Positions 24,463-53,929 of a stretch of DNA of 54,224 bases are shown one piece after another. The position numbers were made by a program, and so were the translations under genes. The stretch comes from a virus. Where the stretch lies: the IMG/VR virus record IMGVR_UViG_3300032050_006033, positions 1 to 54,224 of that record; one strand, 5' to 3'. Positions within the stretch are counted from its first letter, which is position 1; each line of letters starts with the position of its first letter. The notes beneath the pieces are model-generated. The model was given only the letters and a program-made list of their open reading frames with translations, had not been told where the DNA came from and did no database searches.

Positions 24463-24496
24463 AACCTCAACCGAATGGTTGGGGTTTTTTGTTTTT
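24463..24496 (+). terminator. Rho-independent terminator closing the 21683-24438 operon
   Basis: 10-bp stem AACCTCAACC/GGTTGGGGTT (arms 24463-24472 and 24477-24486, one G-U pair) with a GAAT loop, followed by TTTTTTGTTTTT. Plus-strand orientation fits the preceding gene. Confidence 0.88.
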
Positions 24497-24501
24497 AACC
24501 A

Positions 24502-24530
24502 TTGATATTTTCGTTTTTTCTTGGTATACT
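24502..24530 (+). promoter_or_regulatory. Promoter of the glycosyltransferase/nucleotide operon
   Basis: TTGATA (24502-24507) and TATACT (24525-24530) are separated by 17 bases, 21 bases upstream of the ATG at 24552 and just after a terminator. It also fits the looser Bacteroidota form: TTG, 20 bases, TATACTTT. No Shine-Dalgarno sequence precedes the start. Confidence 0.6.
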
Positions 24531-24551
24531 TTTACAAGAACAAAAAATATT

Positions 24552-25766
24552 ATGGAAAAAATAAATGTATTAGTATTACCATCAGACCAATCTGGTGTTG
24601 GAAAATTTAGAAGTGTTGACCCACATGTTAAACTACAAAATATGTACCCTAATGACTTTCATGTAGATATTGATTATAATCCGAGAATCAATGATCAAAA
24701 TTACTGGAAGAAATATCAGATTGTACACTTCCATAGGAATATCGGACAAGATTATGACAACTGTGTTAGTATAATTGAGAATTTAAAATCTCTTGGGATT
24801 ATAGTTGTGGCTGACATCGACGATTATTGGTTACCAACTCCAGAACACCCGATTCATCAGTTAATATTACAAAACAAAGTTCACGAGAAAATTAAAAATA
24901 ATTTAAAAGCTTCGTCTTATGTGATAACCACGACTGAAATTTTTGCTGATGAAATAAAAAAAATTAATAAAAACGTAGTGGTTTTCCCTAACGCTATTGA
25001 CCCTAAAGATCCACAATTTACTGAGGTAACACAACCTTCAGACAAGATCCGAATTGGTTGGTTAGGTGGTTCATCACATTTACACGATTTAAAACTACTT
25101 GATGGGATGGTACCAAAACTATCATCAGTACACGATAAAGTACAATTTTTTGTTTGTGGTTTTGACACTAGAGGTCAAGTAACCGAAATTAACAAACAAA
25201 CAGGTCAAAAAACACAAAGACCAATAAAACCAGAAGAGACTGTATGGGTTAAATATGAGGAAATATTTACTGACAATTATAAAATCATCACACCAAAATA
25301 CAAAGACTATTTAAATACCTTTACAGAAAATGATTACCCTGGTGTAGAAAAAGAAAACTACGTTAGGGTTTGGACCAGGCCGGTAAATAACTACGCTAGA
25401 AACTATTCCAAATTTGACATTTCACTAGCACCAATTAAAAACCACGTATTCAATAGAATGAAATCACAATTAAAGGTGATTGAAGCTGGGTTTTATAAAA
25501 AAGCTATTATAGCTTCAAATGTTGGTCCATATACGATTGACTTGAAACACGCTTTAAAAAATGGTGAATTTACCGATGGTAACGCTCTATTGGTGGACGA
25601 ACATAGAAACCACGGTGACTGGTCTAAGTATATTAAAAAACTAGTTAATAACCCTAACATGATCACTGACTTGGGTGAAAGGTTATATGAAACTGTTAAA
25701 GACCGTTATGATTTAAATAACGTAACAAAAGAGAGAGCTGAATTTTACAAATCCTTAATTAAATAA
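24552..25766 (+). CDS. GT-B glycosyltransferase (family 4-like)
   Basis: A 404-residue protein from the ATG at 24552; the longer frame would begin inside the terminator/promoter region. Landmarks are VLPSDQSGVGKFRSVDPHVK (residues 7-26), IVVADIDDYW, VITTTEIF...VVFPNAID, IRIGWLGGSSHLHDL, and a C-terminal RMKSQLKVIEAGFYKKAIIA segment. These fit the Rossmann fold pair of GT4-like enzymes common in T4-like phages. It is first in the long plus-strand sugar operon. Substrate unknown. Confidence 0.75.
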   Translation: MEKINVLVLPSDQSGVGKFRSVDPHVKLQNMYPNDFHVDIDYNPRINDQNYWKKYQIVHFHRNIGQDYDNCVSIIENLKSLGIIVVADIDDYWLPTPEHPIHQLILQNKVHEKIKNNLKASSYVITTTEIFADEIKKINKNVVVFPNAIDPKDPQFTEVTQPSDKIRIGWLGGSSHLHDLKLLDGMVPKLSSVHDKVQFFVCGFDTRGQVTEINKQTGQKTQRPIKPEETVWVKYEEIFTDNYKIITPKYKDYLNTFTENDYPGVEKENYVRVWTRPVNNYARNYSKFDISLAPIKNHVFNRMKSQLKVIEAGFYKKAIIASNVGPYTIDLKHALKNGEFTDGNALLVDEHRNHGDWSKYIKKLVNNPNMITDLGERLYETVKDRYDLNNVTKERAEFYKSLIK

Positions 25767-45796: not shown

Positions 45797-48535
45797 ATGG
45801 CAAATATAAGATACTTTCAAATATCATTGTGTAATTCACCAAAAGATTTTCAATATGGGGTTTATGTCGATGACCCAACATCCCAATTAAATGTTGGATT
45901 AATATACTCATTTAGTGGTCTCACCGGTAGTCTTAGATCTATACCGTTTGGTTGTTATGTCATCCGAAGTGAGAAAGATCCTGGTGGGGCTACTCAACCA
46001 AATGCGGTCGTTGTAAATTCATACATAAAAGACTGTGAATTATGTTTATCAACAGAGTCAAACGCTTTATCATTCTCGGATTGTCAAGGGGTATTTGGTT
46101 CCGTTACCCTTGACAAAAATGATTTTTCACCAATACCAACCCCAGGTGATGTGTATTATTTGGATTTTTACCTATCAGGAAAAGAATTTGAACCGATTAC
46201 TAGAATTACGGCATGTTTTGAATTTAAAGAATTGGTAATATCTCCCAGAATTAGTGGTGAATTGTACTCAGCTTCCACACAAACAGGGTGTGAGGACTGT
46301 TTATTAAACCAACCGATAATTTACGAAGTATATGAATGTTTAAGTGAAAACGTATACTACATACCTTTCCCAAATAATACCTACAGTGATCACCTAGTAT
46401 CGTTTACGGACTTATTAGGTATTACCACATACTGTGGAATAGTTAATCGTATTATAGAGGGTGAACCAGCAACTGGTGAATTAATTTTTGACTATGGGAA
46501 CCCAATTAAAACAGGAGTTTTCTGTGATGATTGTTTATCAACAACAAACGAAAAAAAGAAATTAATTAACTGTTTAGATGGTCATGAAGATATTGTATGG
46601 ACCTCAAACTTATTTACCGTTGGAGACGCTACAAATATATCGACTGGTCAGGGTTGTTATGAAATAAGTCCAGACATCGTCGACCCAAGTGAACCGGTTA
46701 CCTATACTGAATTAGCTGATTTTGACCCACATTCAGGTTGTGAGGATTGTCTTGAATGTCATGGGGTTACATATGACTTCACTTCGTGTAGTGAAGTAGA
46801 TGTTTATGGGGAATTACTTAAAATCAACACAGGTGGTAACTACGCCTTTAGTGTGGTTAATGATGGTACTTACGCTTACGTGGGTTACCGTGATAGTAAT
46901 CAAGTTAGAAAAATTGATTTAACAACAAATTCAGTGGTTTCCACAATAAATGTGGGTGTCGGACCTAGAAAATTGGGTCTAGATATATCTAACAATATTT
47001 TATCAATACCAAACTATAATAGTAATTCAATCACTTTTGTTGATACATCAACAATGAGTCCATTTACACTCAGTCTTGGATATCCGTACTACCCTAAAGT
47101 TGCTTATTTTAACACAAATGATGGTTATTTTTACGTGGGTGTTGAAAACGCAACAGGTTCAGATGAAATTAGAATGTACACCGTACCATCTTATAGTTCC
47201 GTAACCCAAGTTAATGTTTTCCCGTCAATAATAGAGGGTGTAAACGACATACTCCAAATAGGAAGTTTGATTTATGTTTGTGGTACGGGTAATAATTATG
47301 TACAAATTTTTAATACGGCATACACCCCGGTTGGAACATTTGGGATAGCTTCCCAAGGGACATCAATGAGTTATGACTTGTCAAATAATTTATTATATGT
47401 TGCCACAGTTAGTACGACCTACACAGTAATAGATTTAAACACATCGTCAGTTTCAAACTACTCACCAGGACTTAATAGTTGCTGTTGTGATAAAGAAATA
47501 TTATTTGATGGGGTTAATAATAAGTTATACATTACAGACCCGTGTCCGAATGAAATTTATGAGATAGACCCATCAACAAATACAATGATCCAGATTTACA
47601 ACACAACTGACGGATCACCAAATGGAATGACAATATGGTCAAATACCGTATACTTCACATCTTACTCAAGTCTAATAACAGTTGGGTTGTTATCACAATT
47701 TATTAACGGGTCGATAAATTCATATGAGTATATTCCAAATGGTAACACATTCTTCCACCCAGTTTATAACGTTTGTTGTGAAGTAACAAATACTAGACCT
47801 GATTTTGATGGTGACTATACATTCTACAGTTTATTATCATATGACAACTGCGGTAGTTGTGAAATGGTGTCTCACGACTTATTTTATTGTGAAGAATGTA
47901 ACACTGGTGTATCTGGAATATTAGTAGCACCAAGTGGTGTTTATAACATTAATGACTTTGTTAAATCACATTGGGGAAATTCTAATTTTTTATGTTTTCA
48001 GATTTTAGATACATGGTCGGAAGTTAATTACGGTATCCCAGATTTTATATTTGAATCAGAATCACACTTACCCTACTCAACGTGTGGTGAGTGTGAGTTA
48101 AACTCAACATTAGGTATTACTGTAATTAATTGTGATACGTTAGTTGAATCACAAGTAACATTAACCCTATCGGAATGGATAACCGTTACTGGATTCCCAA
48201 GGTTAGTACCTAGACCAACAATTAGTGACATTTACGGTAATTGTTTTACAGTCGTTAACACATGTCCAGTGGATAATATATACCCAGCATTTGAATTAGC
48301 GGATTATTATTTAAGTGGGACACAATGTAGATTATTGAACCCGAATAGAACTGAACCGCCAAGAAGTGCTGGTACTGAATACTTTGAATGTGTAATATGT
48401 TGTGATTGTGGAGCGACCGGAGGAACAGTTACACAGGTATCACCTCCACATCCAGTGTGGTCCGATGGATATGGAACCCCGGTAACACAAATGGGTTCGG
48501 TGACATTAGGTGGAATGTTTGGACTGAACAATTAA
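45797..48535 (+). CDS. Cysteine-rich paralogue with inserted beta-propeller
   Basis: A 912-residue protein. Residues 1-333 and 636-912 carry the same Cys modules as the 627-residue neighbour. Residues about 340-635 are inserted and look like a YVTN/NHL-type beta-propeller: repeated blade ends such as VVNDGTYAYVGYRDSNQVRK, ISNNILSIPNYNSNSITFVD, LSNNLLYVATVSTTYTVIDL and VNNKLYITDPCPNEIYEIDP. The cassette at the C terminus is shared with the neighbour. This looks like domain gain in one of two duplicated genes. It may act as an adhesion or baseplate-attached protein; function unknown. Confidence 0.65.
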   Translation: MANIRYFQISLCNSPKDFQYGVYVDDPTSQLNVGLIYSFSGLTGSLRSIPFGCYVIRSEKDPGGATQPNAVVVNSYIKDCELCLSTESNALSFSDCQGVFGSVTLDKNDFSPIPTPGDVYYLDFYLSGKEFEPITRITACFEFKELVISPRISGELYSASTQTGCEDCLLNQPIIYEVYECLSENVYYIPFPNNTYSDHLVSFTDLLGITTYCGIVNRIIEGEPATGELIFDYGNPIKTGVFCDDCLSTTNEKKKLINCLDGHEDIVWTSNLFTVGDATNISTGQGCYEISPDIVDPSEPVTYTELADFDPHSGCEDCLECHGVTYDFTSCSEVDVYGELLKINTGGNYAFSVVNDGTYAYVGYRDSNQVRKIDLTTNSVVSTINVGVGPRKLGLDISNNILSIPNYNSNSITFVDTSTMSPFTLSLGYPYYPKVAYFNTNDGYFYVGVENATGSDEIRMYTVPSYSSVTQVNVFPSIIEGVNDILQIGSLIYVCGTGNNYVQIFNTAYTPVGTFGIASQGTSMSYDLSNNLLYVATVSTTYTVIDLNTSSVSNYSPGLNSCCCDKEILFDGVNNKLYITDPCPNEIYEIDPSTNTMIQIYNTTDGSPNGMTIWSNTVYFTSYSSLITVGLLSQFINGSINSYEYIPNGNTFFHPVYNVCCEVTNTRPDFDGDYTFYSLLSYDNCGSCEMVSHDLFYCEECNTGVSGILVAPSGVYNINDFVKSHWGNSNFLCFQILDTWSEVNYGIPDFIFESESHLPYSTCGECELNSTLGITVINCDTLVESQVTLTLSEWITVTGFPRLVPRPTISDIYGNCFTVVNTCPVDNIYPAFELADYYLSGTQCRLLNPNRTEPPRSAGTEYFECVICCDCGATGGTVTQVSPPHPVWSDGYGTPVTQMGSVTLGGMFGLNN
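48365..48535 (+). repeat. C-terminal cassette, copy 2
   Basis: Second copy of the 171-base cassette found at 45611-45781, here at the end of the propeller-bearing paralogue, with a Cys cluster CxxCCxC. Confidence 0.9.
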
Positions 48536-50392: not shown

Positions 50393-50605
50393 ATGGAAGA
50401 AAAAGAGGAAATTTACGGTAATTTGTTTGGGTCTATAAATATCCTAAATGAAGAACATCTAGAACTTATGTTATCCACAATGGATAGGGAAAGATCGATT
50501 TATTTCCTGGTAGAATCCGTTAAATCAGCTCATAATAGGGGGTCGTTTACTATTGGTGAAACTGAAGTGATATCAAAAGCCATTAGGGTGTTATCAACTA
50601 CCTAA
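50393..50605 (+). CDS. Small acidic hypothetical protein (70 aa)
   Basis: A 70-residue protein from the ATG at 50393; the longer frame beginning at 50288 would run through the neighbouring gene on the other strand, so it is rejected. Sequence MEEKEEIYGNLFGSINILNE then ERSIYFLVESVKSAHNRGSF, GETEVISKAIRVL, probably helical. Its 3' end overlaps the end of the T9SS-like gene by 8 bases, convergently. No family recognised. Confidence 0.6.
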   Translation: MEEKEEIYGNLFGSINILNEEHLELMLSTMDRERSIYFLVESVKSAHNRGSFTIGETEVISKAIRVLSTT

Positions 50606-51896
50606 TTATTTTTCTCATTGTACCGTCCTCATATAACTCAAATAACAAACCATTTGTGTACTGGTCAACTTCCCTACCAAATACATCAACATATTTTAAT
50701 ACTTTTTTAAATTGTTTTGTATTGTCTAAAGATATTGGTCCATATGTTTTACATTTACCATCAAAATCATATTGTTTTAATATATAATAATTAATGGTAA
50801 ATTCATCAATGTTATCTAGATAACTATAATACACCTTTGTATTACTATTACCAGAAGCTGTTTTTGTGGAAACAATTTTCCATATTTCACCGTCAGTACT
50901 TCTTTCGATTTGAAAGTAATCTGAATTATATTCAGAAGCTGTAACCCACCTAATTAAATTAAATCCAGGATAAACCACACCGTCAAACGACATAAGATCG
51001 ACCGGTAATGATACGGGTGATGTTGAATTAATTGTTACAGCGAACCCACCCCAAGTACCAACATTAGATACATCTGTGGTCCATCGTATGGTCAATTGTC
51101 CGGTCGAATTTGTCGCGGTTATATTTGGTGGTATTGTTGTACCATTTAATGTCGCTAAAAGTGTTGATGATGTATTTGGACCGTCATACACATATAAATA
51201 ATCGTACCCAGTTTCTAAATCCAACTGTGTAAATGATAACTCCAATAGTTTTGTGTTATCGGACGGTGAAAATGTTACGGTTCTGTTAATGTTGTTACCA
51301 TATCCGGTTAATGTTGGCCCAGATGGTCCACCATCATCAGTTAAAGTGTAAGTTAAGCTGGACGACAATGTTTGTGAACAACTTGAGAGTATTGGTATTA
51401 ATAAATTTTGTGATGAGACAGTTGATGTGAGATTTAAATCGTCAACATATCTTTCATGAGCTCCAGAAGCTCGAGAATCTAGGAGTCTTATGAAAACATT
51501 TGTTAAACCAATAGATCCAATATCGAGTGTGTATTGTGTGTATGTTGTCGTGATTGTGGTTATAGACCCACGAGTGGTCCAAGTTATACCATCCGGTGAC
51601 GTTTGTATATTTAGTGTCCAAGCGGTTGAATTAGCACTTCTACGATACCAGAAAGATAATACACCTGGATTAGATATCTGTGGTGTTCTAACCCAATCAC
51701 CGGTACCATTAAACCCAATTGAGTGAGTACCAGTCCTAACTGGTGATGTTAAAACAATCATTGAATTTGATGACCATGTACCCCCTTGTGTTGGTAACGT
51801 ACTTGTAAAACTTTCATGGATAATGTAATTACCACATTGTGTCCTAGAAATAAAACTAATGAAAACCATTAATAAAAAAATAATATGTTTTTTCAT
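50598..51896 (-). CDS. T9SS-cargo-like secreted protein with CUB-like domain
   Basis: A 432-residue protein from the ATG at 51896 (the longer frame adds 12 residues before MKKHIIFLLMVFISFISRTQ, a clear signal peptide). Residues 25-165 are a MAM/jelly-roll-like region (GTWSSNSMIVLTSPVRTGTH). Residues 170-285 resemble a CUB domain (CSQTLSS; YDYLYVYDGPN; TGQLTIRWTTD). Residues 290-385 match the Ig-like domain of Bacteroidota T9SS cargoes (LPVDLMSFDG; SEYNSDYFQIERSTDGEIW; YYILKQYDFDGK). The final VDVFGREVDQYTNGLLFELY, EDGTMRKIIR resembles a type A sorting domain. It looks host-derived; a secreted role during infection is inferred. Confidence 0.75.
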   Translation of the reverse strand: MKKHIIFLLMVFISFISRTQCGNYIIHESFTSTLPTQGGTWSSNSMIVLTSPVRTGTHSIGFNGTGDWVRTPQISNPGVLSFWYRRSANSTAWTLNIQTSPDGITWTTRGSITTITTTYTQYTLDIGSIGLTNVFIRLLDSRASGAHERYVDDLNLTSTVSSQNLLIPILSSCSQTLSSSLTYTLTDDGGPSGPTLTGYGNNINRTVTFSPSDNTKLLELSFTQLDLETGYDYLYVYDGPNTSSTLLATLNGTTIPPNITATNSTGQLTIRWTTDVSNVGTWGGFAVTINSTSPVSLPVDLMSFDGVVYPGFNLIRWVTASEYNSDYFQIERSTDGEIWKIVSTKTASGNSNTKVYYSYLDNIDEFTINYYILKQYDFDGKCKTYGPISLDNTKQFKKVLKYVDVFGREVDQYTNGLLFELYEDGTMRKIIR

Positions 51897-51996: not shown

Positions 51997-52024
51997 AAAA
52001 AAGGTCAGATTTCTCTGACCTTTT
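51997..52024 (-). terminator. Rho-independent terminator after the capsid gene
   Basis: Minus strand: 11-bp stem AAAAGGTCAGA/TCTGACCTTTT (52014-52024 and 51999-52009) with a 4-base loop, followed by a U-tract from 52002 down to 51997. It ends the transcript of the major capsid gene. Confidence 0.88.
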
Positions 52025-52045
52025 CTTATACTAAAGATATATTGA

Positions 52046-53929
52046 TTATCTCAATTCTCTTAAATCAAATGTACGAACTCCATCAACTGTGATACGTCCA
52101 TAGAAACGGTTGTTAACCATTTTCTTAGCGTATCTAGTCATGATACCTTTGATAGGTGTGAAGTTGAATGGGTTATACATTGTAGGTGTTAATTGTAGAG
52201 GTACGTATGGAGCGTAGATGTATCCAGTGTCCAATAAAGAAGTACCTTTGTGACCCAACAAGATTTGGTTTGGTGGGAAGTAAGGATCTCTATACACTTG
52301 GTAACGACCAGCTAAAGTACCAACTCTTTCGATACCCATGTTGTATTGATCTTGCTCAGGTGAAGCGTTAGATACGTGGAAGTATTCTAAGTCATCAAAA
52401 ATAGCTGAAACTTCAGAAGAAACAACGATCCAGTTAGCACCACCACGAAGAGTTGACTTGTGGATTTGAGCTGACAATTGGTTAATCGCTGTAATCAATG
52501 TTTGATTCCAGTCTTTTTGAGTGTAAGAAGTTACTTGTTGTACTCTTCTCCATCCGTTGTAATCCCAACGTAGGTTCCAAGCCGCACCTTTACGTAAGTC
52601 ACGTAAGATTTCACGGTCGATTTCCGCAGCTACTTGTTCAGATAATAAAGCTGTTAATTCAGCTTCAGCGTCGATGTTGTGGAATGCCGCAACGTCTTGA
52701 GCTAATTCTGGAGACCATTGAGCTCTTAGTTTTCTTTCAGCGACAGAAACTGTAACAGATTCCAAGTCGAAAGAAACCTCACCAATTTGATCTTCAAACT
52801 CCAAGTTTTTATAACGTCTCCAAACAGCTGTGATTGATTCGATGTCCACAGCTTCAACCGTTGTTGATCCTGTGTATCCATCTAATGAAGAATCACCACA
52901 TGTAGCACAAGCTGGACAAGAAAGATCAACTTCTAAGTAGATACAACCAGCGTCATCACAAGTGTTGTTAAACGCACCACCGTTACCATTTCCTGGATAA
53001 TCAGTGTACTGTAGATTTGATGTAGGTTGAACGATACCCTTACCGTAGATTTGTGTTACCACACGGAACAATAAAGAGTTAGGACCATTTTGGTTAAACA
53101 ATGGATTACAAGGTGAATTTTCAGTCAAGAAAGGTGTGTTAGCGTAAAGTCTTAAATCAGAAAGGAAAGTTTCTGAATCTACCTCATGACCATCAGGACC
53201 AATTAATTTACCAATACCTGGAATAGATTTCCATCCACAAAGTTTAACAATAACTTTACGAAGGTTTGTTTGATCATCTAATTGACCAGCGTCAGCGTCT
53301 TCTAAACCAGAACCAACCCATACCTGCATTGTTGTGGTTTGTGAAACAGCTGTCCAAGAACCTTTAGAGTAATCAAATAATCCTGGAGGATCTAATTCAC
53401 CTTCAGAACCTTCATAAAATAAATCATAAAGATTTTTCTTGAATGGTTTGTTATTGATTCCTAAATATCCTGGGTATCCTTGTCCTGGATCATTTTCACC
53501 TTTAGCTACCGCTTCTGGTGATCCGATTGGTGAATAATGTTCACCAAATCCAGTCCATCCATTAGCTGCACTTGGAGTATCTCCGGAAGCGTAACCTTGG
53601 ATACGTGGAATAAAGTAGAACAATTTACCGATTGGTAAGTTCATAGCTTGTACCGATACGATATCGTTAGCCAATAATTTAGAGAATACTCTTCTCACGA
53701 TAGGGAAAACAACAGTTTCGAAAGCTCCGTTTGAACCTTCAGAAGTTGCTTCGTTAATTAGGAAAGACGCTTGGTTCTCATATAACTGAGCTACGTTTTC
53801 TTTTAAGTGTCCTTTAAGACCCTCTAGGAACCCTAATCTGTCCCATTTGTTTATTGTGTCTTCTTTGATAACTTTAAGGTGTTTTAACCCGATGTTACCT
53901 ACAAGACCTGATTCTAATAATGCTCCCAT
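52046..53929 (-). CDS. gp23: Major capsid protein, T4 gp23-like
   Basis: A 627-residue protein of gp23 type: ENQASFLINEATSEGSN (51-67), then FETVVFPIVRRVFSKLLAND and IVSVQAMNLPIGKLFYF. The C-terminal part has FEDQIGEVSFDLESVTVSVA, AERKLRAQWSPELAQDVAAF and a terminal YGRITVDGVRTFDLRELR. INE60-Ala61 matches the (L/I)xE site cut by the T4 prohead protease gp21, at the equivalent place in T4 (Glu65-Ala66). Length is longer than T4 gp23 (521), with extra Gly/Cys-rich insertion (about 320-360, DLSCPACATCGDSS). It forms the capsid hexamers. Confidence 0.93.
   Translation of the reverse strand: MGALLESGLVGNIGLKHLKVIKEDTINKWDRLGFLEGLKGHLKENVAQLYENQASFLINEATSEGSNGAFETVVFPIVRRVFSKLLANDIVSVQAMNLPIGKLFYFIPRIQGYASGDTPSAANGWTGFGEHYSPIGSPEAVAKGENDPGQGYPGYLGINNKPFKKNLYDLFYEGSEGELDPPGLFDYSKGSWTAVSQTTTMQVWVGSGLEDADAGQLDDQTNLRKVIVKLCGWKSIPGIGKLIGPDGHEVDSETFLSDLRLYANTPFLTENSPCNPLFNQNGPNSLLFRVVTQIYGKGIVQPTSNLQYTDYPGNGNGGAFNNTCDDAGCIYLEVDLSCPACATCGDSSLDGYTGSTTVEAVDIESITAVWRRYKNLEFEDQIGEVSFDLESVTVSVAERKLRAQWSPELAQDVAAFHNIDAEAELTALLSEQVAAEIDREILRDLRKGAAWNLRWDYNGWRRVQQVTSYTQKDWNQTLITAINQLSAQIHKSTLRGGANWIVVSSEVSAIFDDLEYFHVSNASPEQDQYNMGIERVGTLAGRYQVYRDPYFPPNQILLGHKGTSLLDTGYIYAPYVPLQLTPTMYNPFNFTPIKGIMTRYAKKMVNNRFYGRITVDGVRTFDLRELR

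Follow-up and report, generated by a model that had tools for sequence, protein, structure and literature searches.

The stretch of viral DNA analysed here (the window: 54,224 nucleotides, from an IMG/VR virus record) carries, next to a T4-type capsid gene, an ORF whose product we predict to be a cargo of the host type IX secretion system (T9SS): probably it would be exported by Sec, after which SprA/PorV would recognise its short C-terminal tail and the protein would cross the outer membrane. That the tail is a sorting signal is well supported by five lines of evidence, namely its position and conservation, a natural swap with a long tail, its anatomy, its use by cellular proteins, and the ancestry of the protein. 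Judged from its sequence, the tail is a short variant of the T9SS C-terminal domain (CTD), not a standard type A CTD. The features concerned are as follows.

50598..51896 (-), T9SS-type cargo gene, 432 aa (ORF with ATG start; viral contigs contain 62 relatives)
51840..51896 (-), signal peptide, residues 1-19, then an invariant Q20-C21 (by inspection)
51417..51836 (-), N-terminal jelly-roll-like beta domain, residues 21-160 (beta strands of the AF2 model, moderate confidence)
51021..51404 (-), CUB domain, approximately residues 165-292 (Pfam match at 216-279, and fold)
50721..51008 (-), LPVDL/TASE Ig-like domain, residues 297-392 (in every full-length relative; pLDDT 82-89)
50601..50708 (-), predicted short C-terminal sorting tail, residues 397-432 (tail profile at the stop, AF2 strands, short-CTD anatomy)
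51997..52026 (-), terminator-like hairpin in the capsid/cargo gap (13-bp stem plus T run)
52046..53929 (-), T4-type major head protein gene, upstream neighbour of the cargo gene (phrog_138, E 2.1e-66)

The ORF (51896..50598, minus strand) is intact and coincides exactly with the coordinates given by the first-pass annotation, and the four elements read there, a signal peptide, a CUB-like domain, an Ig-like domain and a conserved C-terminal tail, are all present at 50598-51896 (by inspection, PF00431, fold and relatives). By inspection the signal peptide is MKKHIIFLLMVFISFISRT, with the cut falling immediately before QC, as suits the Sec signal peptide of a T9SS cargo; complete relatives begin likewise, and the AF2 model places a helix (2-16) over it. 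We rejected a lipoprotein reading of the QC start because a Gln preceding the Cys does not fit a lipobox. Reelin and MAM entries were among the fold matches of the whole model and bear on the N-terminal beta domain. What had been called CUB-like is a true CUB domain, both by profile (PF00431, 30.2 bits, cut-off 21.4) and by fold (TSG-6 CUB 2wno, TM 0.83 on target, rmsd 2.2 A). The Ig-like domain runs LPVDLMSF...TASEYNSDYFQIERS, and its LPVDL/TASE...ERS pattern, found in all full-length relatives, is typical of secreted Bacteroidota proteins; for this domain Pfam gave no hit above threshold, all being weaker. The remaining ~36 residues, KKVLKYVDVFGREVDQYTNGLLFELYEDGTMRKIIR, reach the stop.

The tail had been likened to type A sorting domains, with a TIGR04183/TIGR04131 profile search proposed as the check. 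That search was negative: neither these models nor PF18962 matched the window protein even at E ≤ 10, let alone above the curated type A cut-offs (TIGR04183 / PF18962). A type B CTD (TIGR04131) was likewise absent from the NCBIfam scan, none of 17 aligned tails matched any NCBIfam sorting model, and profile-profile comparison of short with long tails was not significant. Assignment to the standard type A class thus falls; what stands is a tail conserved at the stop with short-CTD anatomy. The profile result does not refute the cargo idea, because a class of short CTDs exists (PMC11969387) and because an orthologue, at locus L027, has a long type A tail in that place.

Short CTDs are known from cargo of Prevotella intermedia, where they comprise three strands in 40-55 aa with motifs B, D and E, support cleavage and anchoring, and have been modelled to bind PorV in a type A-like manner (PMC11969387, 2025). 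The window tail is alike in its three strands (399-404, 417-422 and 427-431 in the AF2 model, which for the whole protein has moderate confidence, pLDDT 73 and pTM 0.40), in its length (~36-45 aa counting the linker), in the glycines of motifs B and D (G13 and G22 of the tail, invariant together with a D-G turn among 17 diverse aligned tails) and in a basic C-terminal motif E ([KR][KR].[IY].R in nearly all of the 17). It differs in motif D, where GxY (or GxN) gives way to G-x-[VLI] in the 17 tails, V/L/I standing for the Tyr, and moreover in sequence, in the Bacteroidota order concerned and in being phage-borne. Its position at the protein end is that of a C-terminal domain that the secretion system would recognise. 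Since CTDs can be incompatible between species (PMC11285876), export in any given host is not guaranteed.

The missing Tyr of motif D and the failure of curated profiles would also suit a periplasmic protein, exported by Sec and acting in the envelope, e.g. in lysis, whose tail has lost its function as a T9SS signal. We consider this improbable: the glycines and the D-G turn do not vary across 17 diverse tails, T9SS-positive bacteria bear the same tail, and the tail is under purifying selection (pN/pS 0.43, with 0.36-0.54 outside the signal peptide, values that are rough because synonymous sites are near saturation).

For the reading as an exported cargo, the strongest comparison comes from viral relatives. 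Viral contigs were scanned twice (36 and 62 loci), which yielded 35 distinct ORFs having a stop codon, and in 33 of the 35 the short tail lies 0-2 residues from that stop. The other two are an ORF with a long type A tail in the same position and a frameshift fragment, leaving 33 of 34 intact distinct homologues with the short tail and 1 of 34 with the long, well beyond chance. Signal peptide and tail occupy opposite ends in all intact relatives, and the tail is kept despite varying middles, the long forms inserting GEVED or GBD_T9SS_assoc modules between the CUB and Ig-like domains. A close relative (L011, nucleotide identity 91% and 89% on the two flanks) has a clean insertion of ~700 bases relative to the window at the CUB/Ig-like junction (L011:7089-7788) in a phage otherwise ~90% identical, which implies that the middle of the cargo is exchanged as a module while both address labels are kept. 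Another copy, 99% identical (L004:7055-8399), is frameshifted after ~84 residues, possibly through sequencing error or possibly as a true off-state.

The long tail of the L027 orthologue (FPNP...GVYYISI...KQIIR) scores 15.2 bits with TIGR04183 and 20.0 bits with PF18962, both under cut-off, and the subtilase encoded beside it has a type A CTD that, at 31.4 bits, passes the TIGR04183 cut-off. In other phages the subtilase tail is short (VIDVNGK...PGMYFIVDNN..KRIYKN) and retains the GxY. Cargo and subtilase thus both carry long CTDs at L027 and short ones elsewhere, so that long corresponds to short in two genes; this swap between orthologous phage genes constitutes a natural experiment on the minimal T9SS signal. 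The L027 contig is viral, with genes of a phage DnaK-type family and an endolysin. No INPHARED record matched across most of the window protein; four huge metagenomic phages there match the Ig-like domain, two of them extending into the tail. Separately, a ~1015-aa phage protein on contig G020 (L031, 182849-184369, minus strand) contains five repeated weak TIGR04183-like stretches, which we read as tandem CTD-like Ig domains.

On the cellular side, the tail profile found matches in 88 of the 150 genomes that share a family with a Crocinitomicaceae-labelled genome, in none of 100 from a Flavobacterium family, and in 11 of 247 across the class. The 25 tail-bearing cellular proteins examined fell into 7 groups by similarity outside the tail, so that the family has the tail on at least 7 homology groups; a signal-peptide-like N-terminus was found by a simple hydrophobicity rule in 16 of the 17 with a visible start, and SprA, the T9SS translocon, was encoded in each of the ten tail-bearing bacterial genomes checked. 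Within the Crocinitomicaceae-labelled family (L122-L147 and others) short T9SS tails occur on many cargoes, with up to 15 matches per genome, and the six genomes of the family that were scanned also encode 75 to 150 or more long type A CTDs. As no curated model recognises the tail in its phage versions, the secretome of this family may be under-annotated; standard sorting-domain profiles miss such cargo in phages and bacteria alike, so T9SS secretomes are probably under-counted. Regarding ancestry, a Chitinophagaceae genome encodes on its chromosome a 2854-aa cargo whose beginning shares 40% identity with the N-terminal half of the window protein; by eye, the C-terminal end of this cargo looks like a type A tail. 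The host phylum proposed by the first-pass annotation, Bacteroidota, is well supported and probably narrows to a Crocinitomicaceae-like family; our search for literature linking Crocinitomicaceae, phage and T9SS found none. Concentrated as it is in one bacterial family, the short tail may serve as a host-assignment marker.

The major capsid gene is followed immediately downstream by the cargo gene, across a gap of 149 bases; the adjacency reported earlier is real, and PHROG identifies the neighbour as major head protein. The hairpin in the gap suggests that the cargo gene may be a separate transcription unit, and is weak evidence by itself because shuffles average 1.4. A promoter scan of the window did not rise above shuffles, and a TATTTAT-type motif, which by eye precedes many cargo and capsid genes of relatives, is not consistent within the window and is not claimed as a promoter. 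Gene order is conserved in more than ten independent viral contigs, with phage genes flanking the cargo gene on both sides. This synteny rules out a chimeric contig and largely refutes the wider reading of a passenger host gene caught by chance, with no phage role; derivation of the modules from Bacteroidota cargo and the frameshifted L004 copy would suit such a passenger, but diverged homologues are under purifying selection, and we find the idea scarcely credible.

Phage-encoded T9SS cargo, as predicted, is well supported; its placement by the capsid gene is restricted to one phage lineage. At L005, L006, L009, L013, L018 and L027-L030 the gene sits among unrelated genes, and from these varied positions it appears to move like an accessory gene, yet under purifying selection. 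Location bears also on whether the product could be a virion protein, a head decoration or fibre built of Ig-like and CUB modules whose T9SS likeness reflects shared domain ancestry only. The site immediately after the capsid gene in one lineage fits this, as do the Ig-like/CUB-like modules of phage structural proteins (tail-protein entries in the fold search); the gene is, however, far from head genes in other phages, a protein with a signal peptide could not take part in virion assembly in the cytoplasm, unrelated bacterial secreted proteins have the same tail, and L027 shows the swap to a long CTD. A virion role is accordingly unlikely.

Two kinds of neighbour recur beside the predicted cargo in relatives, both absent from the window. 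One, in about nine distinct phages, is a secreted subtilase (Peptidase_S8, E 2e-31) encoded at a distance of 86-530 bases from the cargo; its Asp/His/Ser triad is visible by eye, and its tail is short in most phages and canonical type A above cut-off in L027.

L017:6284-7735 (+), phage subtilase with signal peptide and T9SS-type tail, adjoining the CUB cargo
L021:8330-9787 (+), phage subtilase with signal peptide and T9SS-type tail, adjoining the CUB cargo
L027:8167-9819 (-), phage subtilase with signal peptide and type A tail over cut-off, adjoining the CUB cargo

Further phage subtilases of this kind, again with signal peptide and T9SS-type tail, adjoin the CUB cargo at L177, L182, L190, L191, L196, L199 and L203. 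The other neighbour is a strongly hydrophobic protein of 150-170 aa, without a family match, near the cargo in about ten distinct phages. Its gene starts at or before the cargo stop (gap +1, -3 or -30) or is divergent at up to 125 bases, and from this arrangement the protein is likely a partner of the cargo.

L013:11257-11760, L015:4909-5379, L017:9968-10426, L021:11990-12451, hydrophobic-protein gene
L026:2707-3171, L032:11999-12460, hydrophobic-protein gene
L162, L164, L180, L028/L030, hydrophobic-protein gene

We propose a mechanism in four steps. The cargo would 1) be expressed in the course of infection, its gene next to the capsid gene being transcribed as a separate unit, and 2) cross the inner membrane via Sec by means of its signal peptide, a step that the sequence supports. 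In the periplasm 3) host SprA/PorV would recognise the three-stranded, type A-like CTD, as homology, the natural swap and anatomy suggest, and the protein would cross the outer membrane, the tail probably being cleaved and the cargo anchored or released; for type A CTDs the outcome is static anchoring or else release (PMC12618676). Outside, 4) the surface of the infected cell may be remodelled by the jelly-roll and CUB modules, which would bind glycans or proteins there. Since CUB and jelly-roll modules are typically glycan or protein binders, surface masking or remodelling would be the likeliest use. The phage might benefit by excluding superinfecting phages or by freeing its progeny from debris, which we put forward with low confidence; the roles suggested in the first-pass annotation, superinfection exclusion, aggregation or lysis support, are likewise candidates. 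Our leading candidate, itself tentative, is that re-adsorption of sibling or rival phages is blocked, helped in some relatives by the exported subtilase and the small hydrophobic protein. It is conceivable, at clearly less than even chances, that a widespread group of T4-like and other phages deploys CUB cargo, subtilase and small hydrophobic protein as a dedicated host-exported module for surface takeover, under a short tag matched to the host family, such that receptors are stripped or masked and other phages excluded.

Phage-encoded T9SS cargo in general is prior art (PMC6949934, 2019; PMC7468147, 2020). Cryophage has three variable type A cargo genes, for which superinfection exclusion was proposed (PMC7468147). 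As here, these are Bacteroidota phage genes with T9SS sorting domains that vary between close phages; they encode, however, an endoglucanase, a GH39 and a PA14 protein with profile-recognised type A domains in a 76-kb non-T4 phage, whereas ours is a CUB protein with a short, profile-missed tail in T4-like and other phages. The crAss-BACON phages resemble our case in having sorting-domain ORFs near head genes of Bacteroidota phages, and differ in being crAss-like gut phages with BACON domains for which ordinary profiles suffice (PMC6949934). A homologue from an uncultured Caudovirales phage (A0A6J5NMN5 in BFVD, 44% identical over the fold alignment) is annotated just 'CUB domain' and, at 658 aa, is probably a longer form. 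New are the short tag itself, found in phages and a Flavobacteriales family and missing from the curated libraries scanned, and the T4-like setting, the conserved cargo family and its gene neighbourhood. On this reading, exploiting the outer-membrane secretion machine of the host would be a conserved feature of the gene set of these phages, not a curiosity.

Elsewhere in the window we found no tRNAs. A 912-aa protein encoded at 45797-48535 (+), without a PHROG match, combines a beta-propeller-like (YVTN-type) region with repeated C-x-x-C segments and is possibly a fibre or adhesin, and a glycosyltransferase is encoded at 24489-25766 (+; phrog_7162, E 5e-45).
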